Below, piece after piece: positions 10,436 through 50,790 of a DNA stretch of 64,000 nt. Every line of letters begins with the position of its first letter. Positions within the stretch are counted from its first letter, which is position 1. Source of the stretch: Prorocentrum cordatum (taxonomy: Eukaryota > Sar > Dinophyceae > Prorocentrales > Prorocentraceae); NCBI GenBank assembly GCA_963575745.1, contig CAUYUJ010004581.1, positions 197,967-261,966 of the forward strand. Direction: 5' to 3'. The notes beneath the pieces were generated by a model, which saw nothing but the letters and a program-made list of their open reading frames with translations, was not told the origin of the DNA and did no database searches. Position numbers and translations under genes: made by a program.

Positions 10436-10535
10436 GAGGAGGGGGAGGAGGAGGGGGGGGAGGAGGGGGAGGAGGAGGAGGAGGAGGAGGGGAAAAAGGA
10501 GGAGGAGGAGGGGGAGGAGGAGGAGGAGGAGGAGG
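10436..10535. repeat. (GGA)n tract, left flank of the DIRS-like element
   Basis: GGA/GGGGGA repeats run directly into the left end of the element at 10536. The tract continues in phase on the far side of the element at 17134. Confidence 0.9.
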
Positions 10536-10700
10536 ATGCCTCCCGCCGCCGCTGCCGAGGCCAGAGGACGCCTTTTATCGGGGCGCTGAACGCCCGAGCA
10601 AGCTTCAGCGAAGGTGCACCGGCACAGATGATTGGGCAGCGGGCGGAGGCGAGCCAGACGGCCAGCTGCACGACACTGAGACGAGGGTACAAAATGACGC
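10536..10700 (-). repeat. Split direct repeat B2 (outer 3' end)
   Basis: 165 bp, matching 10841-11005 with one difference (10602 G, 10907 A). Its outer edge abuts (GGA)n. Confidence 0.93.
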
Positions 10701-10720
10701 GCGAGGGAGGGAGGGTTGGG

Positions 10721-10841
10721 AGCGCGAACAATGAGACCTCAAATGGCCATGGAATGGCAAAGGAGTGTGCGCTGATCCATGGCCCTGAAATGCGGCCTCT
10801 CATGCTGCGGCGTCTGGCAATCAACAACGAAGTAGTGAGCA
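10721..10841 (-). repeat. Split direct repeat A2
   Basis: 121 bp, matching 17013-17133 with two differences (10771 G versus A; 10808 C versus T). It joins B1 with one shared base and is separated from B2 by 20 bp (10701-10720). Confidence 0.93.
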
Positions 10842-11005
10842 TGCCTCCCGCCGCCGCTGCCGAGGCCAGAGGACGCCTTTTATCGGGGCGCTGAACGCCC
10901 GAGCAAACTTCAGCGAAGGTGCACCGGCACAGATGATTGGGCAGCGGGCGGAGGCGAGCCAGACGGCCAGCTGCACGACACTGAGACGAGGGTACAAAAT
11001 GACGC
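10841..11005 (-). repeat. Split direct repeat B1
   Basis: Second copy of the 165-bp repeat. It lies just downstream of ORF2, whose stop is at 11059. Confidence 0.93.
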
Positions 11006-11058
11006 AAACCTGCCAAACAATCCTTGGTCATCTCGATAAACTACTGAACCATTCACCG

Positions 11059-14000: not shown

Positions 14001-15162
14001 AGGCCCCGTCCTGGATGTGAGGTGCTGGCATACCGTCGACCAATTCAGGAACGCTATCGAAACCTCCCTTCTGGAGTAAGATATTTCTGTGCACTTTCTG
14101 GCAAAAATCCAGCGCGTGCGTCCAGCCCATGGGCAGGACGGCCAAGCACGGGCGTGCCCAAGCGCGGCCCGGAACTGGGCGCCCGCCCAGCTCACGTACC
14201 CCGAGCTGTGCTGCCCGAAGCCGAGGGAGCGCAAAGAGGTGCCGGAGCTCCGGCGGCAGGCCCATGTTGTAGAAGGCGTCCGCGATATCGACCCCTGCCG
14301 TCCACAGCACCTCGCCCGGCGCAAGCTCGATGGAGCTGAAGCTGCCCCCCGAGGCCAGGCTGGTCTTGTCGGGCTCCGCGAACCTGAAGTTGCTGCCCCG
14401 GCAATCGATCACCAGGCGTTGGCGACCATCCTTCTTCCAAGCGGTGGCCAGTCCGACTTCCTCAAAATCGCCCTCATCGACCCTGAACTCCAGCATGCCA
14501 CCGTCCCTCATCCTCTCGACGAAGGCAAGGTAGGCCGCGGGCTGTCGCAGCACTGGGTCCAGGTAAGGGCGTGCGAAGCCAGCCTCCTTCTTAAAAATCT
14601 CGGCGCTTTGAATTGGCAAAACCTTCGAAGTAATGAACCCTCGCACTATGTCTGGACCGTCGGCCCCCAACAGCTGGCTCAGGGGCACAGGCGCACCGCC
14701 CACAGCTGGAAGAGACACGAGGTCGTGCGCGAAGGGGGCCACCGTGACGGGCTCGCCGTCGGAGTAGCCAGCGCCGACCTGGAGCTCCTGAAGGGCCACC
14801 TCGGTCGACAAGTCTGGAGGAATGGAGCCCATCGCCGCGCAGCTGTCGGCGAGATGCTCCAAGCAAAGCTGCTGCATCCTGTTGGGCTCCTGGCCCGCAC
14901 AGCGAGGCGGGTCATCAGAGCCGGCATCCAGCTGGTTGAGCGCCACAACGAGCTCGGTCACGAGCTCCCCCTGCAGCGTCCCGTTGGCGCGGCGACGCCG
15001 CGCTGTGCGACCGCCGCTGCCGCCCGGAGCGGCCTGCGCGCGGCACCAGTCAGGGACTGGCAAGGGCAGGAGCGACCGCTGCATGTGGTCGTCACTTCCG
15101 CCCACCACCTCTTCTGCATCACCCCCGGGTCGAGGCAGTCCCGGGGGCGGACCCAGCATCAT
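11059..15162 (-). CDS. ORF2: RT-RNase H and C-terminal methyltransferase-like polyprotein
   Basis: 1,367 aa from ATG at 15162, overlapping the ORF1 stop (ATGA). RT occupies about 180-540: RLVIDCRGSNF, motif A VDIADAFYNM (Asp292), LPMGW, and motif C YVDN (391-394), with Asn in place of the second Asp. RNase H is about 541-746 with a complete acidic set: Asp547 (ASDAS), Glu665 (VLEGRA), Asp692 (CDNM) and Asp741 (ADAPSR). From about 780 to 1110 the frame is Ala/Gly/Arg-rich and appears out of frame, because recombinase motifs lie in another frame over the same DNA. From about 1118 a methyltransferase-like domain is in frame: FLELFSGHGGLS (SAM-binding motif I), GTPCQTW (motif IV, Pro-Cys at about 1172), LENPARSRLW (motif VI, ENP). 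It would copy element RNA. Whether the last domain methylates DNA is unknown. Confidence 0.85.
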   Translation of the reverse strand: MMLGPPPGLPRPGGDAEEVVGGSDDHMQRSLLPLPVPDWCRAQAAPGGSGGRTARRRRANGTLQGELVTELVVALNQLDAGSDDPPRCAGQEPNRMQQLCLEHLADSCAAMGSIPPDLSTEVALQELQVGAGYSDGEPVTVAPFAHDLVSLPAVGGAPVPLSQLLGADGPDIVRGFITSKVLPIQSAEIFKKEAGFARPYLDPVLRQPAAYLAFVERMRDGGMLEFRVDEGDFEEVGLATAWKKDGRQRLVIDCRGSNFRFAEPDKTSLASGGSFSSIELAPGEVLWTAGVDIADAFYNMGLPPELRHLFALPRLRAAQLGVRELGGRPVPGRAWARPCLAVLPMGWTHALDFCQKVHRNILLQKGGFDSVPELVDGMPAPHIQDGAYTAYVDNFISFGVDPDRPAALLRSAQEALSSAGLPLHDPDLPASVSEQLGWVFDGERGAVRPKSRRAWRLRLGIQGLLARGHASGRQVGKIAGHFAFIAMSRRPLLAVFSSVYAFSRKYFDRVMKLPPSVRRELRWAASLIPLAWADLRATWSPRVYASDASEEGGGVCQKEADLGAIRGAGRYGERWRFRRGTASRPRDCLFEQSDPPSADAAKVEPIADSVVSPNVEHVVSPEEAVEDPEGNLWNVPEVEEKLHGGRWQVVSSGGWARSEKIIVLEGRALVHSLRHALRDSKSFGKRILFLCDNMGLVCAMEKGRSSAGGVLRVARQWGAWCLAGAVQASVRWIPSERNVADAPSRRHIPLGVWIDNGAADSAEGIEQWAVRGAGRSSQQADCRSAGLELAELAVREPAVGVLRGARRPARPAARRSAGGAAPAAEGAAPEGSRGPVAPGAADAAPARGPEPQDGASCEARAGSGCGCSSGSARRPWVAAAAGVGGAEDRGPVRRSVAGHPPRVAAVACCVLPAVGAKRRRDRLRGRELDGPGDLVRGAGAGGHKGARGGELLPDAVRKVGRALPSAPGAGREGLEAARLWAGAAAAALGGRRADRAGDAADRLLGDGGLDGRRRPLLLPPQRAAAVYRRDARAARAGDPRGEPGDRAAPERGGDQRQDRAVRQEGGARGRAAAAAAPRRPREGSRGSGAAADLPREAFARALACRGARLVQPQVFLELFSGHGGLSRSLRERGFVALEWDICRGPAWDLSARKARKLVRGWILAGQVWGVFMGTPCQTWTRARDAGPLRERGQAGPVLPSRLRSDQHLMGLPAVTHPVDAQAIRIGNNLARFSCSIFELMHWLQRPVALENPARSRLWLLPRLKKAAAWSTSQLAYTDMRQWGAPWKKPARILGDRVSLQPVARECHGKLCSRSRRKHTSIHGLAKGGGFKTKAAQQYPPALCEALARCFDHAHGSCKTITMSSLFV
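11960..12820 (-). pseudogene. Tyrosine recombinase in an alternative frame, truncated
   Basis: Within ORF2 DNA but in the frame shifted by one base, the minus strand reads QSRQVLRTL, then SLLQRASVAPKTVGQYDGLW (core-binding start, about 12480-12560), a helical stretch, PWEVVALIALEMLLTGFW, and CCFRPSEL with the box-I Arg (about 12105), then ANRAIVLHPSEEE and TGQFDKK (about 11970). Relatives continue for roughly 100 residues with an HxxR-type box and GRW..-Tyr. Here nothing similar follows in any frame before the methyltransferase begins at about 11800. The recombinase has therefore probably lost its C-terminal catalytic half. The frame is out of register with both the upstream RNase H and the downstream methyltransferase, so two indels or frameshifts are implied. 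Confidence 0.65.
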
Positions 15163-16583
15163 GACTCAGCGGGAGGAGCGTCCCGGCCGCCCTCGCTGGC
15201 CTTCTGCTCCTCCCTCAGTTTCCTCGCGTTCTTCTTGATGCTGTGGATCAGCTCCAGCTCATTTGACACCAAGTCGAGCAACTCAGGGCACACCATCGAG
15301 GGAGACCTCGAACCTCCCTTGAATGCGAAGGCCTCCTCCAGGGGCATCTTCATGTTGTGCTGCTGCTGCTGCTGCTCCGCACACATGTCGTCCCAGTAGT
15401 GCTCGACGAGCCGGAGCTTCCTGTAGCCGAGCACCGCCCTCGCCAAGTTGTAGACGTCCAGGTGATCGGCCGAGCCCATGGTCTCGATCATCTTGGACAG
15501 GGTCTCGTGCATGTCTACCCTGAAGTCGGTCGGGTTCAGCCTCCGCTTTGACTTCCACATCTCTTGATGGAGGGCCAGGCCCCCCTTCTTCACCTGGAAC
15601 TTGGCGCACCACTGCGCCGTCCTAGGCGGGGCCACGGCAAACCGCGGGACGGCCTCCTCGCGGCACAGCTGCACCACCTCGCGCCACTCCCGAGAACTGC
15701 CGCCAGATGGCCCGGCGTCGGGCGGGATCTCGAGCGTGCACGCGTCGCTCCCGCGGCACTCCTGCGTGAACCACGCGATCTCGCTGTCCCGCAGCAGCAC
15801 CGCACTGGCTCCGCCGCCGCCGGCGAGCGTGAGAAGCCCGCGGCGCCCAGCGCGTCCCACGAGGGTCGCTCCGCCCGGAACCCCGACGGCCACCTCCGCG
15901 CCGAAGGACACGGAGCCGTCGACGTCCTCCGCGGCCACCCAGTGCCAGCCTGGCGCGGGCTCCCCGCTCGGATGCGGCGCGGCCGCCACGGTGTCTGGCT
16001 CCGCCGGCGCCCGACCCGCTGGCGCCGCGGCCGCCCCGGGGGCGAGCGCCACGGCGGCTGGGACCGCGGCTGCCGGCGCCGGCGTGGCCGCGGCCACCGG
16101 TGGGGCTGGCGGGGCCGCCCCAGGGAGTGCCAGCTCACCCGGGGCCGCTGGCGCGGGGCACCTCCCGGCCACGCCGACCAGCGGGGGGACCACGATCGAC
16201 GGGTCCGCCAGCGATACGCTGCCCGCCGGCGCGCCCGCACAGTTCAACGCGGACAGCGTGAGGAGGAAAGGCCCGTCGGGCAGCGGTCCATACCCCGACG
16301 CGGCCCCGCGGCGGAGGGCGCTCCAGACCACGGCCGCCGTGAGCAGGCGGCAAAACCCGTAGACTCGGTTCGCCGGGACGACCCCAGCCCTGCCGCCCTG
16401 CCCGTGCACGAAATGGATCTCCATCACATCCGCGTCTGGATTCGTGGTCTCGCCGTAGTCGTCGTAGTCCGGGGTCATCTCGTACCCCGAACGATATGCG
16501 TCCAGTCGCTCATGGTACAGAGCGGGGCCTCCTACGCGATACCTGGGCAGACGGAATCCTCCAGCCAGCGGCCCAGCAGCCAT
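15159..16583 (-). CDS. ORF1: gag-like protein, 474 aa
   Basis: The chosen start is ATG at 16583 (MAAGPLAGGF), two bases after the ORF0 stop. The open frame extends further upstream to 17006, but there it overlaps ORF0 and has low-complexity composition. An N-terminal part contains YRVGGPALYHERLDAY and a TPDYDDYGE motif. The middle (about 90-200) is Ala/Pro-rich and probably disordered. A C-terminal half contains GWHWVAAEDVDGSVSFG, then a helical region from WCAKFQVKKGGLALHQ through DHLDVYNLARAVLGYR, a short Gln run, and a basic Lys/Arg/Glu tail. This plan matches structural proteins preceding RT in dinoflagellate YR elements. No protease or zinc knuckle is visible. It ends in an ATGA overlap with ORF2. 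Confidence 0.75.
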   Translation of the reverse strand: MAAGPLAGGFRLPRYRVGGPALYHERLDAYRSGYEMTPDYDDYGETTNPDADVMEIHFVHGQGGRAGVVPANRVYGFCRLLTAAVVWSALRRGAASGYGPLPDGPFLLTLSALNCAGAPAGSVSLADPSIVVPPLVGVAGRCPAPAAPGELALPGAAPPAPPVAAATPAPAAAVPAAVALAPGAAAAPAGRAPAEPDTVAAAPHPSGEPAPGWHWVAAEDVDGSVSFGAEVAVGVPGGATLVGRAGRRGLLTLAGGGGASAVLLRDSEIAWFTQECRGSDACTLEIPPDAGPSGGSSREWREVVQLCREEAVPRFAVAPPRTAQWCAKFQVKKGGLALHQEMWKSKRRLNPTDFRVDMHETLSKMIETMGSADHLDVYNLARAVLGYRKLRLVEHYWDDMCAEQQQQQHNMKMPLEEAFAFKGGSRSPSMVCPELLDLVSNELELIHSIKKNARKLREEQKASEGGRDAPPAES

Positions 16584-16585
16584 CC

Positions 16586-16996
16586 TCAATAGGCAGCGGC
16601 AACCGGCGACCTGCGGAAGACCTTCGCCTGCTCCAGCGCGAGGTACGCGAGGTCGCCACCCCCCGGCGAGCGGTCCACCTCCACTGGCGCCGCGATGGGC
16701 CCCGCTGGCGCCCTCGAGCGAGGCCGCCCGGCCCACGAGACGGTCGCGGCCCCGAGCACGCCGCCCAGCAGGAGCGAGAGGCTCGCCACCCAGGCCAGCT
16801 GAGCCCCGTGGCACCCCGGGATGGCCGCGGCTGCCAGGGTGCCCTCGCCGCTGGGGCACGTGCACTGCAGCGGAGGGCAGTGCAAGGCCGGACTGCACCG
16901 GCAGTCCGGGCAATCGGCCACCGAGGCCCGGACGACGAAGGCGGTGGTCAGCGCCTGCCCCACGTCGTGGAGCAGCCCCACCAGCCCGGCCTCCAT
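16586..16996 (-). CDS. ORF0: Cys-rich single-membrane-span protein, 136 aa
   Basis: The first ORF of the DIRS-like element starts at the first ATG after repeat A1 (MEAGLVGLLHDVG). Residues about 20-50 are Cys-rich (CPDCRC, CPPLQCTC), which could bind a metal or form disulphides. Residues about 62-85 (LAWVASLSLLLGGVLGAATV) form one predicted membrane span, followed by a basic R-rich stretch and a charged tail that ends VAAAY. The stop TGA is separated by only two bases from the ATG of ORF1 (TGA-GG-ATG). A similar peptide precedes gag in the relic at 5640-5830, so it looks like a conserved part of these elements. I do not know its function; an accessory role at a membrane is only a guess. Confidence 0.65.
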   Translation of the reverse strand: MEAGLVGLLHDVGQALTTAFVVRASVADCPDCRCSPALHCPPLQCTCPSGEGTLAAAAIPGCHGAQLAWVASLSLLLGGVLGAATVSWAGRPRSRAPAGPIAAPVEVDRSPGGGDLAYLALEQAKVFRRSPVAAAY

Positions 16997-17012
16997 CACC
17001 CGGCAAGGTCTC

Positions 17013-17133
17013 AGCGCGAACAATGAGACCTCAAATGGCCATGGAATGGCAAAGGAGTGTGCACTGATCCATGGCCCTGAAATGCGGCCTCTCATGCTGT
17101 GGCGTCTGGCAATCAACAACGAAGTAGTGAGCA
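17013..17133 (-). repeat. Split direct repeat A1 (outer 5' end)
   Basis: Second copy of the 121-bp repeat. It lies directly upstream of the ORF0 start at 16996, so it probably carries the promoter and 5' leader. Its outer edge abuts GGAGCAGGAGGAGG. Confidence 0.93.
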
Positions 17134-30254: not shown

Positions 30255-31375
30255 CAAAATAGAAAATAGCCTGGCGATAGACCCAACCATATGCAACTGT
30301 GAGTGCCGCACTTGTGGGTACCGTCTTCGGTGGAGCTCCCTGTGGGGCAACGAACCCTGTGAGGGGTGCGCCGACATGAGGGTGGAACTGTATGCGAACG
30401 CTGCCACTGGGGCCTTCGGTGGAGCTCCCTATGAGGCCACGAACCCTCTGAGGGGTGCGCCGAAATGAAGGTGGAACTGCATGCGAACGCTGCCACTGGG
30501 GCCTTCGATGGAGCTCCCTATGGGGCCACGGACCCTGTGAGGGGTGCGCCGAAATAAGGGTGGAACTGCATGCGAACGCTGCCACTGGGGCCTTCGGTGG
30601 AGCTTCCTATGGGGCCACGAAGCCTGTGAGGTGTGCGCCGACATGAGGGTGGAACTGCATGCGAACGCTGCCACTGGGGCCTTCGGTGGAGCTCCCCATG
30701 GGGCCACGAACCCTGTGAGGGGTGCGCCCTGCTGCTGCCACTGGGGGGGTGCGCACGAACCCTGTGAATGCGCCGAAATGGGTGGAACTGCATGCGAACG
30801 CTGCCACTGAGGTCTTCGATGGAGCTCCCTATGGGGCCACGGACCCTGTGAGGGGTGCGCCGAAATGAAGGTGGAACTGCATGCGGACGCTGCCAGTGGG
30901 GCCTTCGGTGGAGCTCCCTATGGGGCCACGGACCCTGTGAGGGGTGCGCCGAAATAAGGGTGGAACTGCATGCGAACGCTGCCACTGGGGCCTTCGGTGG
31001 AGCTTCCTATGGGGCCACGAACCCTGTGAGGTGTGCGCCGACATGAGGGTGGAACTGCATGCGAACGCTGCACTGGGGCCTTCGGTGAAGCTCCGTATGG
31101 GGCCACGAACCCTGCGAGGGGTGCGCCGAAATGAAGGCATGCGAACGCTGCCACTAGGGCCTTCGGTGGAGCTCCCTATGGGGCCACGAACCCTGTGAGG
31201 GGTGCGCCGAAATACTGGTGGAACTGCATGCGAACGCTGCCACTGGGGCCTTCGATGGAGCTCCCCATGGGGCCACGAACCCTGTGAGGGGTGCGCCGAA
31301 ATGAGGGTGGAACTGCATGCGAACGCTGCCACTGGGGCCTTCGGTGGAGCTCCCTATGGGGCCACGAACCCTCTG
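30255..31375 (+). repeat. ~90-bp satellite array, copy II
   Basis: About twelve units with CTTCGGTGGAGCTCCCTATG, GGGGCCACGAACCCTGTGAG and GTGGAACTGCATGCGAACGC. The leader (CCTGGCGATAGACCCAACCA, about 30268) is shared with array I at about 7570. One unit near 30720-30790 is rearranged. The array ends abruptly in a (TGTA)n tract. Confidence 0.92.
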
Positions 31376-31406
<31 letters not shown>

Positions 31407-33430: not shown

Positions 33431-33539
33431 TTCCTATACCGTCATGTGGTGATGGGCCATCGTTTTGAACAAGACGGCGCCCCGCGTCACTCCCGCTCCT
33501 CCTCCCTTCTCACATTGCTGCGCACATTTCACGCGTTTC

Positions 33540-34230
33540 GTCACCCCATGGGGAGCCCCACCGAAAGCCCCAGTGGGAGGGTTCGCATGGCTCCCTCACA
33601 TGTTTCGAGCCCCAATCGGGAGCCCCACCAAAAGCCTCAATGGCGCCACCGTGCCCATTTCGGCACACACCTCATACGCTTCGTTGCCCCATAGGGAGCT
33701 CCACCGAAGGCCCCAATGGGAGGGTTCGCATGCCCCCACCGCGCCCATTTCAGAACATCCCTCACGCGTTTCGTGACACCACAGGGGGCCCCACCCTGGC
33801 AAGGTTCGCATGGCGCCACGGCGGCACACCCCTCTCACGCTTCGTGACCCAATAGGGAGCCCCACCGAATGCCCCAGTAGCAGTCAGTCAGGGTTCGCAC
33901 GGCGCCACCGCATTCATGTCGGCACACCCCTCGCACGCTTCGTCGCCCCCAAAGGAGCTCCACCGACCGCCCCAGTGGCAAGGTTCGCATGGGACCACGG
34001 CACCAATCCCAGTATCCCCCTCACACACTTCGTGGCCCCGTAGGGAGCAACACCGAAGGCCGCAAAGGCAGGGTTAACATGGGACCACCCCGCCCATTTG
34101 GACAAATGCATCACACGCTTCGTGGCCACAGGGAGAGCTCAACCGAGGGCCCCAGTGCCAGGGTTCGCACGGCGCCACCTCGCCCGTTTCGGCAAACCCA
34201 TCACACGATTCGTAGCTCCATATGGGACTG
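33540..34230 (-). repeat. ~90-bp satellite array, copy III, inverted
   Basis: Units read on the plus strand as GGGAGCTCCACCGAAGGCCC, GTTCGCATGG and CACGCTTCGTGGCCCC, the reverse complement of arrays I and II. Units are more diverged than in array II. The block is bracketed by the CACGTG-core satellite. Confidence 0.85.
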
Positions 34231-35189: not shown

Positions 35190-35632
35190 CCACCACCATG
35201 ATCACCATCAACACCGTCATCGTCATCATAATCGTCGTCATCGTCATCATCGTCATCATCCTGTTTGCACTCGTCCCCCTCACTTCACACGCTCCTCCTC
35301 CTCCTCCTCCTCCTCCTCCTCCTCCTCCTCCTCCTCCTCCTCATGCGCCTCCGCCTCCGCCTCCGCCTCCGCCTCGTCCTCCTCCTCCTCCTCCTCCTCC
35401 TCCTCCTCCTCCTCCTCCTCCTCCTCTTCCCTTGGCGGAGCCAGTGGAACCATGCGTCGACGCGGGCTGGCCTGGAACCCCGGGGCGCCCGAGCAGGCTC
35501 GAATCGACGCAGCGACAGAGGGAGAGGAGGAGGAGGAGGAGGAGGGAGGAGGAGGAGGGAGGAGGAGGAGGAGGAGGAGGAGGAGTAGGAGGAGGAGGAG
35601 GAGGAGGAGGAGGAGGAGGAGGGGGAGGAAAC
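34955..35632. repeat. Compound microsatellite: (TCC)n, (CAT)n, (TCC)n, (GGA)n
   Basis: (TCC)n at 34960-35030, (CAT/CGTCAT)n at 35036-35262, (TCC)n at 35291-35431, and (GGA)n at 35520-35632. The last two are inverted with respect to each other across about 90 bp. The (GGA)n lies at the 3' side of the LINE copy at 35640-39471. Confidence 0.93.
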
Positions 35633-36395
35633 ATTCCCTGGACATTCCCCTGACGACATGGTCGAGAGTCGCCGCACCGCCGCCCGCCCACCTCAGGGCG
35701 TCTTCGAGGCGGCGGCGTCGGCGTCGGCGGCTCGCGGGCGGCCTGGCCCCGCGCCTGGGTGCGCGTCGGGCCGCGCCCGCGGCGTCCGCTGCGCGAGCCC
35801 GCAGCAGGGCCCTCCTCCAGCGGGCGAGGCGTGCCTCGCGCGTGGCGGCCCCTGGGCCAGCCGCTCGCCTGCGGGCGCTCCAGGCGGGACGGGCCGCCGC
35901 GCGGGTCGCCGCGCCCCCGCTGGCGGCTGGGGCGGCGGCGTGGAGCCCGCCAGGAGCTGCCTCAGCGTCGCCAGCGGCAGCAGCGCCTCAGTCCTGGGCG
36001 GGCTGCCTCTCCTGGCTGGCGTGGCCGTTGGGCTGGACCTCGCTCTCTCCCTTGCGGCCTCCAGCGCCCTCCTGGCTTCTTCACGTCTCCTCTGGCTGGA
36101 GTCTGTCTCGTACTGCTTGAGCTGCTGGTCGGGCTCCCTCAGCTGGCACTGCCTGACTAGTCCTCTCGGCGTCGCCGCCGCTTCCAGCAGCCGCGTCGCC
36201 CTCGCCTCGGTCTCCTGCTCGCTCAGCTTGGGCTTGGGCGGTCGCGGCGGGGAGCGTGGAGCGGCGTCGGCAGGTTCCTGTCTCCGGTCAGCTCGTCGCT
36301 CAGCTTCACTTCGCCTCTGGTGGAGCCTGCCGTGCCTGTCCAGCGCGTCTGTCTGCCCCAGCGTGCGCCCCGCGGCGCGGGACGTTCCCCTCCCA

Positions 36396-38599
36396 TTATC
36401 CCTCTTGGAAGGGCCTCTGGGCACTCCTGGACCCAGGGGTGGGAAGGGGGTCCTCGCGCGGGGGAGCCATGCCGCTGTCGAGCACCGCGGCGTGGTCGTC
36501 GAGCGGCTCCTCATCAGATCTTGCCGAACTTGGGAGGCCATCCCCAGGGTTCGCATCTGACGTATCCTCACACGCCCTTGCAGCGCCTGGGGGGCTCTCC
36601 CCAGCCATCTCGTCTGACTTGTCTCCTGGCCACGTCCTCCACTCCTCTGCGTCTGCGAGCTTGGTCCAGCTCTTCAGCAAATGCCTCCTCGACTCGCAGG
36701 TGGGGCGGAGGCGGCAGGGTGCCTGCAGCTTGTCCGAGACCATCTCCGTGGCGGAGCTCGCACAGAGCGTGCAGAACCAGCGCCTCTGGCGGCCCAGTGG
36801 GTGGGAGAGGTGGCCGTTGAACTCGATGCATCTGCCTGCCGCTGGGGGCGGGCCTCCGCACTTCTGCTCGAACCACCCCTTAATGCTGGTGAGGGCCGTC
36901 ACCGACGTGACCGACTGGTTGCAGCACTTGCACCTCCACCCTCGTCCTCGCCTGAGCTTCACCAGGTCGCGGGTGGTGGCTGGCCGCCTGTGGGGGTCGT
37001 GCGTGAGGAAGTCCGCCTTGACCTTTCCCAGCGCTCTCCTCTGCATGGCCGGGCGCCACCTCGCCACCTTCAGCTCTTTGTTCTCTGTCGGCCTCCGCTC
37101 CATGGCGTCCTGGGTGCAGGCCGCAATGCGCGCCCTTACCAGGCTCGCCGTCGCCCGCACCCATTCGTCGCAGCCCATCTGGTTCTCGGGGATGGCGTGC
37201 TGCTTGGCCCCTGCGCCTGCCAGTCTGTCTGCTTCTCGGTTCCCTTCCCAAGCCTCCCTTGGGATGTGCTTCTCCTCCGCCTCCGTCTCCGTCAGGTGGC
37301 TGTTCAGGTGGAACATTGCGATGGTCTCTCTGCCTCCTCCCCTCGCGGCGATGGCCTTCCACGCGCGGCGCCAGAGGCCGCAATTGGCTGCTCCGTCTGG
37401 GCGCTCATCGCGCCGTGCGTGCCAGCCGACGAGGGTGATCTCGCTGTCCGTCCAGAACGCCAGGCCCCCGCACGTCGACTCCAGGCAGTTGGTGGATGAC
37501 CAAAGCCCCGCCCTGTTGTTGGACTGGCGCGCGCCTGGCAGCGGGCCGAACTTCGCGGCCCTGGTCGGGAAGCATCTGGAGCGCCCGCTGGTGTCGAGCA
37601 TCACCCAACTCCACCCGCATCGCCTGCACCTCGCGTCGCTGCTGTACTCGCCTCCTGAGCCGCCACCGCTGATGGCAAGCTGCTCTCCCTCTGGGGCCTG
37701 CAGCCTGCCTCCCTGGGGGCACTGCCCCAGCGGCGTCTCCTGCTCCTCGGTGCAGCACGGGGGTGGCACCGCCCAGGCCTTGGGCGTGAGCCCTCTGGGC
37801 CAGAACGCTGGGGCTCCCGCCACGCCCTCTTCGGCTCTCGCGACGAGCCCTGCCGTCTGCTCGACCACCTCCAAGGGCTTCCTCGCAGGGCATGCTCCCC
37901 AGATGCGGTGGCAGTCGTCCTCGCGCTGCCCGCGCTCGCAGGTCTCGTCGCCAGTGTTGAACTCCTGGCGCTTCCTTGCATGCGTCCAAGTGCCTGCGCA
38001 CGCTGCCGCCAGCAGCGCGCCGTAGGTCTGGTGCTTGCCGCGCTCCCTAAGGGACTCCATCCAGGTGCTTGATCATATCCGCGCAGTCCACCCCGTGCTC
38101 CAGGCCAGCGCCGTTGTGGTGAGCTGCTGCCTGCCTCCACAGCTGCCACCTCACGCTGTCCAGGAGCGCCTCTATGATGTCCTCTGGGTCTCCGTCCTCC
38201 TCGTCCTCTGGGAATCGCTATTTGCTGCCGTCCTCGTCGATCCAGATGTCTGGCCCCCATCGGGTCCCAGCCTAGCTCCCAGAGCAGCAAGATGATGCTG
38301 CCCATCACTCCTCGCCTCTGCTGCCAGCGCCGACTCGGGTCCGTCTGCAGGAGCCTGAAGTATACCCTGGGCCAGGCTTTGCGCGCCTGCTCCCGCAGGT
38401 CCTGGCTCTTGGCCCACAGGTCGAACCAAGCTCTGAGCTGGCCCCGCGTCATGGCGATCGCTGGGTCGACCCCTTCTAGCGCCAGGAAGGTGGTGGGGCA
38501 GCGGCCAGGCCACGCTCTCTTCAGCGCCTGCGCATACCTCCTCCTCGCGTGCCTGAGGGCCCACGGTGAAAGCCCGTGGGCGGCAACCCCGTACACCAA
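36396..38599 (-). pseudogene. LINE linker, RNase H and zinc-finger tail
   Basis: A linker (VYGVAAHGLSPWALRHARRR through GSIILLLWELGWDP) occupies 38599-38200. After a frame change a zinc knuckle CERG...DDCHRIWGACPA lies near 37890. RNase H follows at about 37690-37160: GGGSGGEYSSDARCRRCGW, QSNNRAGLWS, FWTDSEITLVGWH, LNSHLTETEAE, and GNREADRLAGAGA. The first catalytic Asp (DGSGG in relatives) and the Glu (RAEL) are both Gly, while the later two Asp remain, so the RNase H is inactive. Two Cys-rich motifs (WRCKCC near 36925, WFCTLCASSAT near 36770) close the protein as in other dinoflagellate LINEs. Confidence 0.65.
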
Positions 38600-39449
38600 C
38601 GAGGCTGATGGTCCTGGTGGGCCACTCCTCGCCTCCTCTTCAACATCAGCTTGCGCAGCTTGCTGCCGACCGCTCCGAACCTCTTGTGCGCGTCCTTGGC
38701 CCTCCTCGCATGCGTGAGCCTCCTGGTAGTGCCTCTTGCTGCTCGATCAGCTCCGAGGTCCCTGCCTTCTGTCACCGCTTTGACCTTGATCCCAAGCCTG
38801 CTGAGCCTGGTCTGCACCTGGAGCGTGGAGCCAAAGTCCGAAGTGAAGATCGGCGTCTTGTCTGCCAGGCTGAGCCCGTGCTGCTCCAGCCCCCGCTTCA
38901 GCTTGCTCGTTGCCAACGTGAGCTGCTCCGTGACCGCCCCCTTGCTTCCGACGACCTCGATGCTGATGTCGTCGAACCAGGCCCGCGGCATCGGCTTGGG
39001 CAGCGCCGAGGCGACGTCGACCATGTGGCTGAGCACCGCGCAGACCACCGTCTTGGCCACGTTGTTGGAATGCCTCGAACCCGCTAGAATCGATCTGTCC
39101 GCCAGCATCGGCTCCGAGCACGAGTTCTTGCACCTCAAGATGCGGGCCCCCGAGTGCTGCAGCAGCAGCATGGTGGGGGGCCTCGGGCAGAAGTTCAGCT
39201 TGAGCGCCTCTGGGATGAGGGTGTCTATGCGCAGGCTGTCGTAGAACTTCTCGATGTCCGCCAGCGTGCAACCCTGGAAGATGCCGAGCGCGTCGCAGCA
39301 CTCGTCCGAGAGGATACGCCTCAGCGCCTCCCTCTTGCAGCTGTTGCCCGCCACCGCCGCGCCCCGCGCGCGCTCCTGCTGCTTCGCCCACGCCCTCGCC
39401 GCGGGCTTGTGGAGGAGCTCCCAGCTAATCAAAGCTTGAGCCAACATGG
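38520..39449 (-). pseudogene. LINE RT, C-terminal two thirds
   Basis: The frame directly after the leader relic reads LISWELLHKPAARAWAKQQ, LADIEKFYDSLRID (motif A, Asp kept), PRPPTMLLLQHSGARILRC, AGSRHSNNVAKTVV (motif B region), RAWFDDISIEVVG (motif C, FDD), then the thumb TRLSRLGIKVKAVTEG and DLGADRAARGTTRR. The fingers and the endonuclease are absent. The frame is open for about 300 codons, so decay is modest. It then shifts near 38600 to the linker. The first ATG after the leader is at 39448. Confidence 0.7.
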
Positions 39450-39471
39450 CTCGAGCCAAAATGGCCACGGA
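39435..39471 (-). other. Tandem DinoSL relic (22 nt + 15 nt)
   Basis: 39471-39450 matches the 22-nt DinoSL at 20 positions (core GGCCATTTTGGCTC; A6 and A20 are both G). It is immediately followed at 39449-39435 by CCATGTTGGCTCAAG, the last 15 nt of DinoSL with one mismatch. The shorter piece starts exactly after the CCGTAG of the leader, the place where a leader already in the gene is used as acceptor in a second round of trans-splicing. Confidence 0.85.
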
Positions 39472-39572
39472 GGAGGGGGGGGAGGAGGAGGGGGAGGAGG
39501 AGGAGGAGGAGGAGGCGGAGGAGGAGGAGGAGGGAGGGGGGAGGAGGAGGGAGGAGGAGGAGCTCGGCAGCG
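39472..39572. repeat. (GGA)n tract = (TCC)n upstream of LINE copy
   Basis: About 100 bp of GGA/GGGGGA on the plus strand. On the minus strand it is a pyrimidine tract ending right at the leader relic. Confidence 0.9.
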
Positions 39573-40379: not shown

Positions 40380-41374
40380 CAACTCATGGCGCCCCATCGA
40401 CTGCAAGCCTATCGGGGTCGGGGATCCCACCAAGAGCGGCCCCTTTCTTTGCAAACGCAGCTGCCGCTCGATCCCCTGAGAACTCGAGCCTACTGGGCTC
40501 GCCGTTAGCAGCATCTCGCACGGTGGAATGGGCGGGGGCCTTGCGCCACGAGACCCCATCGAACTTATCGCGCACGTGCTGCCACAAGTGAGGCCGAGCA
40601 TCATCTTCCCGCCGCCCTGCGAACGTCAGGGCTGACCACGTCCCTTCTCTAGGGGGAAAACAAACCTACCTCGCTTTTGACCACCCTCGCTTCCAAGAGA
40701 TACCAAACGATGCCAAACTACGGCCTGTGCGGGCCAGGCCGCTTGACGAGGAGGCGCGTGGTATGACTTGGTTTTGCCTGGAAGCGAATGCGGGGTAGGT
40801 AATTCACGCTCTGATGAAAACCACGTTCGAAACGACGGTGGCACATGGTCCCAGGGGCGGCCTGGCGGGCCGGGCGCACGGGGGAAACATCCTGACAGGC
40901 ATCGCGAAACCTCTGCTGACGCCAATGCCGATTCGCAATGAGGCTGCGCAAACAATGCCGGCAGTGATCCGACCAGGTGGGTGAACTCTGCCTCGAGAGG
41001 AGATCGAGCGCAGGTTTGAGGCACATCGGGCCTCTCCACTCAGGCCCAAAATCACTCTGCCGATCCTGCTCATCGATAACGACGGCCTCCTCACACGCCT
41101 CCCGAACGCGAGGACAGAAACAGGCGCGAGAGAACTCATCTAGGCTCCACGCTCTACCTGCTTGGTCAATCAAAACTGCAGTGGGAACATCCAGCCGCCA
41201 ACCTATGCGACCAGGCGAGAGCACGCGAGCCGCCGCGGGTTGCTTAGCCGAGCTCCACGGCTTCGCCTTGTAGGCCGTCTGGGGCGCATCTTCGAAAGCC
41301 GACTGGGGCACCTGCTTGGAGACGGTGCGATGCCGCTCAAACGAGACGAACGTCTTGGCGGCATCCACCGCCAC
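40380..41374 (-). pseudogene. LINE zinc knuckle and RNase H end, relic
   Basis: Minus-strand pieces GWRLDVPTAVLIDQAGRAW (about 41200), HWRQQRFRDACQDV (about 40930) and a degenerate knuckle GTMCHRRFERGF (about 40840) are followed, in a different frame at 40587-40384, by VSWRKAPAHST and GDRAAAAFAKKGAALGG, the C-terminal box of RNase H (GN..AD..AK..GA in relatives; Asn to Asp and Asp to Ala here). The first half of the RNase H is not readable. 39575-40380 is a GC-rich tail without a clear domain. Confidence 0.5.
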
Positions 41375-41499
41375 ATAAACAAAAAGGTCTCGCTGCGGGG
41401 CCCCAGAGAAGAGGAAGGTGAGGCCAGGGGAAGACCCGGGCTGAAGGGGGCCGAAGGACCTGGCCGAGGCAACTCTGAGGGCCCTAAGGGCCGAGTTCC

Positions 41500-42943
41500 C
41501 TAGACCATTGATGTGCGCCCCCCGCGCGGCCTTAGCGACTGGCCCAGCCCTGCGCGCCCGAGAAGCCCCCCCCCCCCCCCAATCCTGGAGAGCCGAGTCG
41601 CCGAGGCCGACGCGGCTGAGAGGCGCTGATTCTGCACAGGCAAGCGGCGCGCTCTGCCATCAGAAGCGCCACCGCCCAAGTCACGATGGGCGCTGGCCAG
41701 AAAGCTCTCGCCGAGTGGCCAGCCCTCATCGCCAAGCAAGGCCTCCGGCAGCTCTTGGCATGAACAGGGGAAGCACGTCTCGGCCAGGTTGAGCGGCAGG
41801 CCCAGCTTCTCCATCTCGGTCGAGACGGTCACCGTAGTCCTGACGAGCTGCTGTGCCACCGTACGCAGCGTGCCAACCGCGTGGATCTTCAAGTCGTCCA
41901 CAAGGTTCAGCGACCGACGCGCTGGCGTATCAATCGCCACAGTTCTGAGAACGCACGAGCTTCACGATGCCAGTCGCGCAGCTGCGGCCAGCGATGCCCG
42001 TGCCATTCGGCAGCACTTGCCGAGAGGTAGCCCCGAGCCAGCGGGCCCTCCGCGGTCCTCGGTCCACCGCGCACAGGCACTTCAGCAGCTGCTCGTCGAA
42101 GCCGCAGTGCCTGCCAGCTGCGCGCGTGGCAGCGTGAGAAATGTTATCGTGGAGCTTCCGCGCATCGTAGTACAACGTGCCACTGACGAAGTTGCGCCTC
42201 TTCGCGTGGACCAACAACAGGTTGTGGACGTAGGCCGCGCGAGCCGCGGCGGTGTCGCCAGACTTGCCCCAGAAGAAGCTGGCGTCCACGCTGACCTCCC
42301 ACGCGCGGACAAGAGGCTGCCGAATTCTGGACCACACTCGGGGCCATGAGGCCAAAAACCCAAACGGCTTGCGCCCGACATCAGGGGGCGCCTTCGGGGT
42401 GAACACCATCATAGTGGCCCAGAGCTCAGGAACGCTCGCCATCCTCTCGGACTCGCCAAGGATGGCCGCGAAGCGCGAGACCATCGCGTCCGAGGGCTCG
42501 TCCAAGGGCCTTGGGCGGAAGTTGTCCCAGCCAAGCCCTTTGCGTCGGCCAAACTAGAGCGTCGCCGCGCGAACTTGCTTCGCACTGATCGGCCCCAGCG
42601 CGTGCTCCACCTGCCAGGGCGCCGCTGGAGGCTCCAGAGCCCTGGCATCTTTCGCCCAGAGCGGCAGCCACTTCTGCAGCACGGCCTCCACAGCCAGCGA
42701 GCCAACTTGCGGCAGCGCCTCGATATCCTCTGGAAAGACAACGGGCTGCGGCTCGATTACTTTCGGCTTGATGAGCTTGTGCGCTATGCGTCCAGGCCCA
42801 GCAAAAGCCGATCTGCGAAACTCACGCCATAGCTTCGCCTTAGCCGCCGCGTCAGCTCGCCTGCGCACGGCTAGCTCAGCGACCAGGAGCTGCGAGAACC
42901 ATGGCGCCAAAGGGCTGTCTCTCTTTCTGCCAAGCCGAGCCAC
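41500..42943 (-). pseudogene. LINE ORF2 reverse transcriptase, frame-shifted
   Basis: A pre-RT linker (RRSAFAGPGRIAHKLIKPKV, about 42820) is followed by DEPSDAMVSRFAAIL, VPELWATMMVFTPKAP, GFLASWPRVWSRIRQPLVRAW, and SGTLYYDARKLHDNI (motif A, Asp kept) at 42505-42170. LLKCLCAVDRGPRRARW and NGTGIAGRSCATGIV (motif B) follow. After a second frame change near 41940, LNLVDDLKIHAVG carries motif C (VDD), then a thumb with LGLPLNLAETCF and HRDLGGGASDGRARR. The order is complete, and both catalytic Asp of motif C remain. Two frameshifts prevent expression as one protein. Confidence 0.72.
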
Positions 42944-44832
42944 CTATCAACGGCCACGACTCCCAAGGCCTCGGCTCCACTGACAGCGGCTGGAAGCGTT
43001 AGCTCATGAGCTTCAAGAATTTGAAAGAGGCGAGCACGAACCGCCTGCCGCTTGCCACGAGAGCCTCGAGCTGCGCGGCCCCATCGGAGCATAGCCTGCC
43101 AGATGCGGCAAAAGCTCCACCGGGCCTCCGGGCCCGAGGAGTCGTGATGCCGCTGACGCCGCGCTTGAACTTCCAGGAGAGGCTTCTCGACTCGTCGAAT
43201 GCCTTTACCACGCCCACGGTGCAAATGCGCAGCCGTAACATCAACTTGCCGTGCTCGCATCAGCGCCGACTCAGCCAGGTGAAACCACCGAGCAGAGGCC
43301 ACCTGAATACAAGAAATGTGCTCCATTAGCTCTGCATGTTCAAGCTGGGACTCAGCAGCCGGCTGCGGCAAAACAACTTCATCGCCCTTGGCCACCCGTT
43401 TCGGGCGTCGAGTGCCCTCTACCCACACGGTCGGCCGATGCCATATCTGCCCGCGGGAGCAGCGCGCCCGGTCGCGCGTCCCTGCAGGAGTTCCAGCGTA
43501 GGCGAGAGGCGTTTGCACAAAGTGCGCGAGCGAGCGCGACATCGCGAAGTAGTCGAACTCGTGATCACCGCAAGTCGGCATGCCAGCATTCACGACGATG
43601 GCGTCCACCTCCTCGCACCAATCGCTGTCCTGCAACTCTTGCGTTTCAATGTTCCAATCAGCCCCTATGATGATGGGAGTCGGGTGCTGACGACCGACGT
43701 TGCTGGCCACTGCTGACAGGAGCGCCAGGTTGTCCCCCGTTAAGCCGATCGACGTGACCACGTAAGGGGACATCGCCAATCGCACCGAGCCGTCTCCAAG
43801 ACGCAGCCTCCTGGCCGCGATTCGGTGGCCCCGCTCATCAGGGGCAGGGATGCCGCCAACGACGCCAATGTGCATGCCTACGCAGATGCCCGCACCACCA
43901 GAGACGGCAAGGCGATCAGACCCTGTGCACCGCGGCGGGCCCAACGCCAAGTGGCGACTCTGGCTGAGGCACCGCTGCCGCGCGCCACCAGCCACCTCCA
44001 GGTCGGGGAGCCTCGTCTCCTGGATGAAAGCCACGTCGAACCTGCGTCCCGCCGCCGCGTTCCATTCCAATGCAGATCTAGCCCCTTGCCACGTGTCACC
44101 GTCGAACGCGACGAGGCGCAGGGAGTCCGATCGCGCGTCCAACGGCGCGGGAACCAACTAAGCAAGAGAGATCGCGAGCGAGCCGCTGCCCTGCTGCTCG
44201 CCATCATCCGCGCCGCTGCCTTTGACGAGTTCCAGCGACGGGTCACTAACATCAGTGTCGCAAAGATCCTGTGCAGGGCCGGGCTGCCCCGCAACGTCGG
44301 AGGGGGCCGAGGGCTCCGCGGTGCCAGCCGCCACTGCGGTAGGGCGGGTGTCGGGTCCACGCCTCGCGAAGAGGGGCTCTCCGACGCACGGGCCCGCGCC
44401 TCCAAAAGGAAGGGGCGCGCCGTCGCCCGCAAGGCTGGCCTCCACTGGGCAATCGGGTCCACGCCTCACGAAGAGGACTCGCCGACGTTCGGGCCCACGC
44501 CTCCAGCGGGGAGGGACGCGCCGACGCCCGAGGCGAGGAACAGGCGCCGTGGAGCCTGGGCCCGCTGCGCTGACCCTGCCGCGGCGCGTGGGCAGCCCCC
44601 AGGGGTGAACAGAACATCTCCGCGAGATTGTCCAGCATCCGCCAGTGTTCATTGACGCAGGCAGATTCCAAATCCAGCGACCAGCCCAGGAGGCCAAGTC
44701 GCCCTCCATGATGATCCCCCCCTGGTTGGGGTCAGGCAGGGGAGGCCTGGCCAGTCCAGGGGGCGGCAACCCCACGTCCCTGGGCTGGTTGTCAAAAAAG
44801 CCTGACAAGTCGAGGCGCTGCCAGTCGCTCAT
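42871..44832 (-). pseudogene. LINE ORF2 N-terminal part with endonuclease; one in-frame stop
   Basis: ATG at 44832 (MSDWQRLDLSGFFDNQP) starts 49 bases after the ORF1 stop. The frame is open to 42871 except for one TAG at 44158-44160. A ~100-bp internal duplication (GGGTCCACGCCTC..GAAGAGG words) lies at 44346-44530. The endonuclease follows: LVAFDGDTW, DVAFIQETRLP (catalytic Glu), SGGAGICVG, TPIIIGADWNIETQEL (D-x-N), and EFDYFAMSRSLA. It would nick target DNA. After a linker with VWVEGTRRPKRV the frame shifts near 42900 into the RT part. If the TAG is read through, protein up to RT is possible. Confidence 0.7.
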
Positions 44833-44880
44833 CGTAATGAAGTAGAAGCCACAATGATCATTAGCAGCGAGGCCAAGGTC

Positions 44881-45717
44881 TTACATAAGCGAAAAGGCCA
44901 GGCTGGCCTGGCCTTGGGGCCTGCCAAAGGCACACCGCAGCTGAGAGTAAAGGGCACGAGCTGCTTTATCACCTTCGGGGGCTGACACTCCCCCTGCAGC
45001 AATCTCGGCACGCATCTGCTCCAGGCTGGGGCCAGGGGCAGCCGCCGCGGGCAGCGCTGGGTCTGCAGCCGCTGAGCCGCCCTCCGGCGCTGTGGCCGCT
45101 GCGCCCGCCAGCGCCTGCCCAACCGGCGCCTCGAGGCGCACCAGTGCTTGCTGCGAGCAGTGCGGGGCCCGCTCGCGCAGCTGGACGGCGAACTGCGACA
45201 AGTCGGGCACCTGGACGCCAAGCTCGTCCAAGCCCTGCACCAGCAGCTGCCGCACCTTCTCCGAGTCGAGTTGCAATCTGGGCGCCACTGCTGTCCCGCC
45301 TTGCGAGGGCGCCGCCGTTGCCAACACCACGCTCTGAGCAGCCATCGCGGCTTGCTGGGCCTTGAGGCGCCCAAGGATCTGCTCGTTCTCCTGGACTCGG
45401 AGATTGGCCTGCTCAGCGGCCTGCTTCGCGGCCACCACGCGCCCACGGCAAGTCTCCGGGTGCTTCTTGCCTTTGACCAGCTGGCGCTCGGTCTCGCCGA
45501 TCTTGTGCAAGAGGGCGCGGAGCCGAGTAGCGACAGGCTGGGCGTCGAGGGGCCGCTGCTCGAGCACCTGCCGCTCAGCCCGCAAGTACCCTTGGAGCTT
45601 GGACCAAGTCGGGCCGTCAAGGCTGGCGATGGTACGGAGCTCCACCTCGATCGCCGCCAGGCGGTCCTGGTCCGAGACAGCCTCGCACTCGTTGCCGACG
45701 TCCCACAGCATGGAACC

Positions 45718-45765
<48 letters not shown>

Positions 45766-46255
45766 CGCCTTCTTGAGCTCGCCCTCAAGACGCTTGACAT
45801 GCGCCTGGTACTTGGCGACGAGACCTCCATCCCCTGCCGAGGCGCCCGCGGGCTCCGACTTCTTGAGCCAGGGCGCCCGCTTGGACGGCACGGCTGGAGC
45901 GGCGTTGCCTCCGAAGCAGACAATCCTTCGCGAGGCCGCAGCTGAAGCACTTCCTGTTCTCCGCGAAGTTGAGAAAAGGGCTGGCCAGACTTCGGGCGGC
46001 GGCAGGTCTTGCAGTGCCACTTCTGGGGCTCTCCATCCTCCTCCTCCTCCTCCTCCTCCTCCTCCTCCTCCTCCTCCTCCTCCTCCTCCCTTGCGACACA
46101 GGAGGGGCTCGCCAAGCCGCACGGCGCACCGAGGACCCCCGCGTGGGCTGCTGATCCCTCGGAGCCCGCGGGACCCCAGAAGCAACTGGAGGACTGCCGC
46201 GGACGAGCGGCATCCCTTCAAGCACGGAGGCGCGGAGCCCCCCAGGTGCAAGCAT
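44881..46255 (-). pseudogene. LINE ORF1: zinc finger, poly-Gln, coiled coil
   Basis: ATG at 46255 follows the leader with no spacer. Three frames are needed, changing around the expanded (TCC)n at 46030-46090. Pieces are KWHCKTC (about 46020) and NFAENRKCFSCG (about 45955), which together make a RanBP2-type C2-C2 zinc finger (W-x-C-x2-C...N...C-x2-C). Then KYQAHVKRLEGELKKAK precedes about 15 Gln (CAG repeat near 45720-45766). Next is a long helical, heptad-like region (LAAIEVELRTIASL to QENEQILGRLKAQQ, about 45670-45350), then an Ala/Pro-rich tail ending at 44881. It resembles LINE ORF1 proteins that bind RNA and form coiled-coil oligomers. The 585-codon frame that includes the coiled coil is otherwise intact. 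Confidence 0.65.
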
Positions 46256-46277
46256 CTCGAGCCAAAATGGCTACGGA
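46256..46277 (-). other. DinoSL relic at LINE 5' end
   Basis: 22 nt with a single difference from DinoSL (A20 to G, giving CTCGAG at the end; core CCGTAGCCATTTTGGCTC exact). It directly abuts ATG at 46255 on one side and (TCC)n on the other. A leader in genomic DNA at the start of a retroelement shows that a trans-spliced RNA was reverse-transcribed. Confidence 0.88.
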
Positions 46278-46308
<31 letters not shown>

Positions 46309-46495
46309 AGGAGGAGGAGGAGGAGGAGGAGGAGGAGGGAGGAGGAGGAGGGGGAGAGGAGGAGGAGGAGGAGGGAGGAGGAGGAGGAGGAGAGGAGGAG
46401 GAGGAGGAGGAGGAGGAGGGAGGAGGAGGAGGAGGAGGAGGAGGAGGAGGAGGAGGAGGAGGAGGAGGAGGAGGAGAAGGAGGAGGAGGAGGCCG
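46278..46495. repeat. (GGA)n tract = (TCC)n upstream of LINE leader
   Basis: Over 200 bp of GGA with occasional GAGA slips on the plus strand. Confidence 0.95.
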
Positions 46496-47125
46496 TGCCG
46501 CCTCCTGGGAGGCGCCGCGCCTCGGAGCGACCTCTCCCGTGCGAGGCGGGCGGCCCCCCCCGGAAGTGCGGGCTCGGGCCGCCCGCCTCGCCCAACGGCG
46601 CAGACGATACGGTCAGCCCCTGTAAGGACGCACGGCATCGGCGGCGAGCGAGAGGTTCGAAGGCCTCGGCCGTGTTCGTCGGTTCTCGGCGGTTGTCTTG
46701 CCTCGGGATGCGTTCCAGCGCCTGCGCCCCGCCGAGAGCGTTCCGGGGGTGCCAGGATCGTCCCGAACGGCCCCCAGGGACCCGAGGTATGACGGCGCGC
46801 CCAGGGGAAGGGCGAGGAGAGGGCCTTCTCGGACGGCGGCAGGACTTCCCAGAAGTCCGCGCGCCTCCCGAGGAGAGTCTTGCGTCCTCAGGGAAAGCTT
46901 CGAAAACTTCTCAGAAGGCCGGGGGGACATCTGGACCCTGAGAAGGCCCGCCCCTTTTCGCTTCCCCCTCTGGGCTCGCCGCCGACGAGAAGGATGCGAG
47001 GGCCTTGGAAGGCCATGTCGACACTCTGCGAGCGGGGCGCGGCCAGCGAAAGCGGAAACGGATGGGCCGAAGGGGAAGGAGGCAATGGCACCCTCGGAAA
47101 GTCGCTCATCCTTACTAGTTATTGG
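46496..47125. other. No recognisable gene; includes a 16-bp perfect inverted repeat
   Basis: GCGAGGCGGGCGGCCC at 46541-46556 pairs perfectly with 46576-46591 across 19 bases. Open frames on both strands at 46620-47130 match nothing I recognise. Confidence 0.45.
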
Positions 47126-48507: not shown

Positions 48508-48735
48508 TGCCTTCGGCGTCTCGACATTGGGTAGAAGGGGGGGGCAGGGGGGGGGGGGTCTGGCTCTGGACCTCTGCTTGGTGCGACTGTTTGGGACCGT
48601 GCGGCCTCTGGGGGACACACCACCCGCTCGGAAAAGGCGCCAAAAAACAGCCAAAATCTTCTCTATGGGGGGGGAGAGGGGAGGTTGCGAGGGCCCGCGC
48701 CGATCGGCAAAATAATGAATAAAAAACGGTCACAA
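48508..48735 (+). repeat. ~215-bp dispersed repeat, copy 1
   Basis: Carries TCGACATTGGG, a G run, CCTCTGCTTGGTGCGACTGT, GGCGCCAAAAAACAGCC, GGGCCCGCGCCGATCGGCAA and an A-rich end (AATAATGAATAAAAAACGG). Three copies lie in direct orientation within 2.3 kb. Confidence 0.85.
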
Positions 48736-49513: not shown

Positions 49514-49725
49514 CGGCGTTTCGACAGTGGGCGAGGGGGGGGGATCTGGCTCCGGGCCTCTGCTTCGTGCGACTGTTTGCAACAGTGCGTCATATGGGGA
49601 AGGCTCCACCTGCTTGAGACAGTCGCCAAAACACAGCCGAACATCTACTCCAGGAGGGGGGAGGGGGGATCCGAGGTCCCGCGCCGATCGGAAAAGCAAT
49701 GAATCAGAAAACGATCACGTTCTCA
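49514..49725 (+). repeat. ~215-bp dispersed repeat, copy 2
   Basis: Same blocks as copy 1 (TCGACAGTGGG, CTCTGCTTCGTGCGACTGTT, CCGCGCCGATCGGAAAAGCA), with the same A-rich right end. Confidence 0.85.
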
Positions 49726-50577: not shown

Positions 50578-50790
50578 CGGTTCGACATTGGGCGGAAGGG
50601 GGGAGAGGGGGGGGGGCTCTGGCTCCGGACCTCTGCTTAGTGCGACTGTTTGTAACAGTGCGTCCTACGAGGAGAGACTTCACCTGCCCGAAACAGGCGC
50701 CCAAAACAGCCAAGATCTACTCTAGGGGGGGGGGGACGCGAGGGCCCGCGCCGATCGGCAAAACAATGAACAAAAAAAAGATCACCAGGC
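50578..50790 (+). repeat. ~215-bp dispersed repeat, copy 3
   Basis: Same blocks (TTCGACATTGGGCGGAAGG, CTCTGCTTAGTGCGACTGTT, CCGCGCCGATCGGCAAAACA) and an A-rich end (ATGAACAAAAAAAAGATC). Confidence 0.85.

Follow-up and report, generated by a model that had tools for sequence, protein, structure and literature searches.

The DinoSL tandem and the LINE fragment behind it

We analysed a window of 64,000 nucleotides (the whole stretch of DNA, from Prorocentrum cordatum contig CAUYUJ010004581.1). On its minus strand, two pieces of the dinoflagellate spliced leader (DinoSL) lie in tandem directly before the reverse transcriptase (RT) sequence of a decayed LINE, here called LINE2.

39450..39471, minus strand: outer DinoSL relic, full 22 nt, TCCGTGGCCATTTTGGCTCGAG; acceptor AG now GG
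39435..39449, minus strand: inner DinoSL relic, the last 15 nt of the leader, CCATGTTGGCTCAAG; a T to G change creates an in-frame ATG
38524..39447, minus strand: open frame of 308 codons from the ATG in the inner relic; its RT region contains DIEKFYDSL, SILAGSRHS and FDDIS
37095..38506, minus strand: remainder of LINE2, frame-shifted and containing a stop; linker plus RNase H-like region (by eye)

Read on the minus strand, T plus CCGTGGCCATTTTGGCTCGAG occupies 39471-39450 and CCATGTTGGCTCAAG follows without a gap at 39449-39435. Directly 3' of the inner relic is CTTTGATTAGCTGGGAG, then RT coding sequence; the strand continues after CCATGTTGGCTCAAG as CTTTGATTAGCTGGGAGCTCC. A sequence-only reading of this DNA had described a near-complete leader, a gapless 15-nt relic and then LINE RT, and its coordinates proved exact on the minus strand. 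The outer leader matched the DinoSL reference DCCGTAGCCATTTTGGCTCAAG at 20 of 22 bases, with T at the D position; both changes were A to G, one in CCGTAG and the other in CTCAAG. The inner relic matched 14 of 15 leader bases (one change, T to G). It starts directly after the CCGTAG register, as that reading had also stated, and this register is the one of published 15-nt relics.

We observed that 33 of the 36 scored bases of the 22+15 tandem matched (3 mismatches). The best tandem scores in first-order Markov windows were 13-15 mismatches (n = 20; at most 23 of 36 matched), the other strand of the window gave 14, and the expected number of 36-nt tandems with ≤3 mismatches was 2e-12 at the window's composition. 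A chance match of the tandem was rejected on the Markov scores and this expectation. The 21-mer of the leader (≤3 mismatches) matched twice in the window and never in 100 dinucleotide-preserving shuffles. A looser scan (≤6 mismatches of 21) gave four placements: the two full leaders, the register of the inner relic, and a weak hit at 33649 (6 mismatches), which no tract accompanies.

The frame through the inner relic stays open to 38524. Its RT fragment (P0001) had no Pfam RT match, and a search of 5.8 billion proteins returned a single relative, P0002 (E 2.7e-19, 32% identity), whose RVT_1 match (E 5e-4) was below the Pfam cut-off. P0002 led to P0003, which matched RVT_1 above the cut-off and matched the window by tblastn (E 2e-23). 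Aligned with these two proteins, the window retains DIEKFYDSL, SILAGSRHS and FDDIS, which we take to be RT motifs. The BLAST alignment begins at residue 217 of P0002 and residue 55 of P0003; the RT sequence that these relatives carry before the aligned part (216 and 54 residues, respectively) is missing from LINE2.

Further downstream, matches of LINE2 to P0003, P0004 and P0005 (a protein named as Prorocentrum cordatum) continue as far as 37095; the frame shifts along the way, and one stretch contains a stop. In the RNase H-like region, recognised by eye, LINE2 has GGGSGG and RAGL where P0004 has GDGSGG and RAEL and P0005 has GDGSGG and GAEI. The two altered residues are presumably catalytic in RNase H, and on this comparison LINE2 would have lost both. 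Pfam matches for these regions in the relatives were below the cut-off (zf-RVT in P0003, E 6e-4; RNase_H in P0005, E 0.19), and the window's own ORFs had no Pfam match for a zinc-binding linker or RNase H. A PDB sequence search gave 2 matches, both with E > 1. No close or parental copy of LINE2 was found in the window, in viral contigs or by the protein search; in the viral contigs an RT pattern hit 7 stretches and a P0004 pattern 4, none of them a relative. We recognised no poly(A) tail or target duplication at LINE2. Judged from its sequence, LINE2 is a dead, 5'-cut LINE.

The frame is open through the leader, which would fit the idea of a chance resemblance, with ordinary LINE coding sequence making up the 15-nt piece or even the whole 37 nt. 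The BLAST match to P0002 starts at 39447, inside the inner relic, and reaches four codons into it. MAFFT sets AMLAQALIS, which is mostly leader-encoded, opposite AVPAQHLLS in P0002 and AWPHQHLLS in P0003, the three peptides sharing A, Q, L and S, and opens a gap of ~24 columns after it; this alignment counts for ordinary coding. However, the BLAST alignment is gapless, pairs W and RAW of both proteins 3' of the junction, and has one identity (L) in the leader-encoded part, and the match to P0003 starts only at 39396. What lies upstream is CTC repeat, not RT. On the DNA tandem statistics and the weak alignment of the leader part we rejected ordinary LINE coding, and we give it almost no probability. 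BLAST and MAFFT thus give different alignments here, both weak over the leader part, and the start of RT homology at the junction is not fixed to the codon. In our judgement the DNA match to the leader is decisive. The leader abuts retroposed coding sequence, and RT similarity extends to the junction, give or take several codons.

The T to G change in the inner relic yields the ATG that opens the 308-codon frame; decay downstream argues against function. The same change is present in a reported non-canonical Polarella leader that a later search did not recover, according to the available text of PMC7245778, and the change may therefore be an old variant.

A second leader and the (CTC)n tracts

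Beyond the sequence-only reading, we observed a second full leader, and (CTC)n tracts at both leaders and on the 3' sides of both LINE regions.

46256..46277, minus strand: second full DinoSL, TCCGTAGCCATTTTGGCTCGAG; CCGTAG acceptor intact
40700..46255, minus strand: decayed LINE1 region, headed by the second leader; 3' limit approximate
39466..39564, minus strand: (CTC)n pyrimidine tract up to the outer leader, whose first bases fall within the scanned tract; borders the LINE1 region on its 3' side
46269..46497, minus strand: (CTC)n tract of ~220 nt immediately 5' of the second leader, whose first bases fall within the scanned tract
35509..35634, minus strand: (CTC)n tract bordering LINE2 on its 3' side
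10532-17133, minus strand: 6.6-kb split-direct-repeat element, order A1 - ORFs - B1 - A2 - B2

The second leader (21-mer CCGTAGCCATTTTGGCTCGAG at 46276-46256, search with ≤3 mismatches) is single and lies on the same strand, 6.8 kb from the tandem. Behind it, the LINE1 region has RT sequence at 42598-42140 that is similar to P0002 (E 5e-8) and contains a stop; zinc-finger-like and endonuclease-like stretches were recognised by eye but found no confirmation in Pfam, the best match being a RanBP zinc finger (E 0.076). The window holds a one-leader and a two-leader stage on one strand. The possibility that the two leaders are copies of one duplicated locus was rejected: their sole mutual match is leader plus repeat (39450-39562 versus 46256-46367).

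Both full leaders share a CTCGAG end. It may mark an SL variant of the host species; the string CCATTTTGGCTCGAG had 0 occurrences in the literature searched, among the matches listed. The two full leaders together carry 3 changes, each of them A to G. Mutation bias or RNA editing before copying could account for this, 3 being too few to judge.

Each leader starts where a (CTC)n tract ends, with 59 and 60 pyrimidines in the preceding 60 bases, and the leader's TCC start is in phase with the tract. Such tract ends account for 213 of the 128000 strand positions (0.17%), and the chance of finding 2 of 2 leaders at them is ~3e-6; under a looser rule (95% pyrimidine before, nothing required after) the share of positions is 0.78%. 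The association is defined by 2 of 2 leaders in one window.

Exact leaders outside the window comprised 4 copies on 3 contigs. One (L002) lies after a (TCA)n repeat reaching the contig edge, and 3 are preceded by no simple repeat, which counts against the leader-tract link. L002:1-52 belongs to a Dehalococcoidia MAG contig that opens with (TCA)n, then an exact DinoSL, and is probably dinoflagellate contamination. L001:2746-2913 holds two exact DinoSL copies 147 bases apart in a 22% GC contig of a viral collection; this contig may derive from a leader-using protist rather than a virus. Within the viral contigs, a looser leader pattern found L001 alone and a tandem-leader pattern found nothing.

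The window contains 20 tracts of ≥60 nt (12 on the minus strand, 8 on the other). Three are at the end of a LINE region and 1 is at the split-repeat element; no element end was recognised at the remaining 16, within the part of the window surveyed for LINEs. The LINE2 region, with an approximate 3' end, lies between (CTC)n at 39466-39564 and at 35509-35634, and the LINE1 region, its 3' end likewise approximate, meets the tract before LINE2 at its 3' side.

In the split-repeat element, the repeats lie at 17133-17013, 11005-10837, 10841-10721 and 10700-10532, with identities of 98.3% over 121 nt and 98.8% over 169 nt. We take the repeat order to be that of PAT/Ngaro-like tyrosine-recombinase retroelements. 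Its two frames (623 and 1368 aa) had no Pfam matches; by eye, the 1368-aa frame has RT, RNase H and methyltransferase-like regions. A CTC tract lies at its 3' side and a short CTC stretch (15 of 20 pyrimidines) at its 5' side. Other repeats in the window include two related satellite arrays with units of 89-90 bp (30325-31376 and 7877-8211), a degenerate relative of this satellite on the opposite strand (33513-34226), and a ~200-bp dispersed repeat with 3 copies on one strand at 79-82% identity (48521-48733, 49535-49718 and 50582-50785).

Two accounts of the tracts were weighed. The tracts could be landing pads that sustain retroposition, with trans-spliced RNAs, LINE RNAs included, inserting there and the leader's TCC joining the repeat. 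Landing in (CTC)n would give a copy, in one step, a long pyrimidine tract before its leader's own CCGTAG. If so, site choice would favour re-spliceable copies, which would explain leader stacking. We put this forward tentatively and think it rather improbable.

Alternatively, the elements themselves may have made the (CTC)n, through LINE 3' tails that received the next copy or by slippage at the leader's TCC end. There is precedent in RTE elements of Lepidoptera for LINE 3' ends that generate simple repeats, as described in the accessible part of PMC2887409; the TCC start is in phase with the tract, and the tract between LINE1 and LINE2 could be a LINE1 tail. The counts above speak against this origin, with 3 of 20 tracts at a LINE-region end and 16 at no recognised element end, as does the split-repeat element, which is of another kind, so that its CTC flank is no LINE tail. 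Element-made tracts are a possibility that we take seriously but doubt; they would leave the history of the leaders unchanged and are compatible with two cycles.

Probable repeated passage of the LINE fragment through RNA

We think it likely that LINE2 is a retrocopy of a LINE fragment that went through RNA at least twice, landed in (CTC)n and has since decayed. We favour this reading because the 22+15 tandem is in the published register, far beyond chance, because the upstream RT of the relatives is missing, and because a one-leader stage with an intact CCGTAG lies 6.8 kb away.

In a first cycle, trans-splicing of a LINE-containing RNA would have used an AG inside the RT region and joined a leader to the RT fragment, and the product would have been reverse-transcribed and inserted. 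The presumed acceptor AG would lie immediately before CTTTGATTAGCTGG in the parent LINE, of which neither a copy nor a transcript was seen. In a second cycle, this copy would have been transcribed and trans-spliced at its own leader's CCGTAG, leaving 15 nt behind a new 22-nt leader, as the 22+15 register suggests. The product would then have been reinserted into the (CTC)n repeat at which it is now found. The repeat places a pyrimidine-rich stretch directly before an AG, and such copies could be re-spliced. After insertion, the element decayed.

Against two cycles, the outer leader, which should be the younger, has 2 changes in 22 bases and the inner relic 1 in 15. The expected age gradient is absent, with numbers too small to decide.

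The claim of at least two cycles, made earlier from the letters alone, is the standard reading of a 22+15 arrangement, but a single splice from a tandem-SL gene has also been proposed in print (PMC6616646, available text). On that proposal, a tandem-SL RNA gene was the donor, one trans-splicing added all 37 nt, and one reverse transcription followed. Tandem-SL loci exist in Fugacium kawagutii, where stacked leaders are read in this way (PMC6616646), and decay is similar in the inner and outer pieces. However, the second leader in the window is single, and transcript relics are reported to start with CCA and to lack CCGTAG (PMC6616646), which splicing at CCGTAG explains likewise. No SL RNA gene was seen in the window: the Rfam search returned 0 matches, although DinoSL may not be included in Rfam. 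No GT or GC donor lies directly 3' of the leaders (CTTTG after the tandem, CCATG after the outer leader, ATGCT after the second leader); therefore, neither leader resembles an SL RNA gene. An SL RNA gene at the tandem site itself was rejected on the missing donor and the Rfam result. The tRNA scan of the window gave 0. Overall, we consider a single cycle unlikely.

Local slippage could also have duplicated the last 15 nt after one retroposition with a single leader, and short tandem duplications would be common in simple-repeat surroundings. However, slippage would need a repeat unit whose two limits coincide precisely with the base after CCGTAG and with the leader end, and the same leader-relic joint defines the retrogenes of PMC12014239 in its available text. 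These points make slippage very improbable, and two cycles remain our preferred reading.

The sequence-only reading further stated that GTGG in the outer leader would block a third cycle at that site. The CCGTGG site indeed has no AG, but downstream of the tract the earliest AG is the one ending at 39450, where the outer leader also ends, followed by one ending at 39435. Splicing at 39450 would swap the outer leader and give a leader plus the same 15-nt relic. Because this would rebuild 22+15, relic counts are lower bounds. Trans-splice acceptors in Amphidinium are described as AG without a simple surrounding consensus (PMC2488372, available text), so that we only assume a pyrimidine tract to be required. 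In the second leader, CCGTAG itself supplies the first AG beyond the tract, ending at 46271.

Comparison with known systems

Slamovits and Keeling reportedly described DinoSL-DinoRL retrogenes and mRNA recycling in 2008. The tandem resembles these retrogenes in having a leader followed by a 15-nt relic that starts after CCGTAG, attributed to repeated trans-splicing and reverse transcription (PMC3229502, PMC6050394, PMC12014239). The passengers in the available text of these sources are mostly host genes, whereas the passenger here is a decayed LINE cut in mid-RT, and the leader here adjoins a (CTC)n tract.

Among 6544 retrogenes identified from transcripts, 6213 had a leader plus one relic and the remaining 5% had at least two (PMC12014239). 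A one-relic transcript needs one genomic leader. The genomic 22+15 belongs with the 5% class, since splicing at CCGTAG would yield two transcript relics. Relics are reported in 61 of 238 full transcripts of Alexandrium, with more than one cycle in 17 of 238 (PMC6050394, PMC3229502), and Polarella transcripts carry up to four (PMC7245778). Two Symbiodinium genomes have leader relics at genes, plus RT genes (PMC8045281). The accessible parts of PMC10666404 and PMC11453091 added nothing deciding.

The stacked genomic leaders also resemble the tandem-SL and SL-like genes of Fugacium kawagutii in the available text of PMC6616646; unlike those, the leaders here have no GT or GC donor and are followed instead by protein-coding LINE sequence. 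Endogenous dinoRNA-virus genes are similar in that a leader relic marks the retroposition of a non-host message, and one such locus has a LINE RT ~17 kb upstream (PMC10235124). The LINE is a proposed helper in the available text of that work, whereas here it is the retroposed message. The element that copies dinoflagellate messages is called unknown in the accessible part of PMC6050394, which favours LTR elements, not LINEs, as the copying machinery. The leader-tagged LINE suggests that LINE RNA entered the trans-splicing cycle.

Waldo, Mino and Dong are LINEs tied to microsatellites. LINE2 and LINE1 appear to share with microsatellite-tied LINEs (RTE, PMC2887409; target-specific non-LTR elements, PMC4640811; available text of both) element ends that adjoin simple repeats. 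The 5' joint here differs in carrying a spliced leader, and specific targeting here is putative.

Among the matches listed in the literature searches, we found no description of a leader relic joined to the middle of a LINE or of leaders next to (CTC)n, and no rule for where retrocopies insert. Our comparison suggests that the stacked-relic retrocopy belongs to a known class, with a LINE passenger and a (CTC)n setting that we did not find described. If general, the leader-(CTC)n joint would offer a directly testable rule both for the landing sites of retrocopies and for the renewed copying of some of them. As in the known retrogenes, stacked leaders record and count RNA-to-DNA recycling in dinoflagellates.
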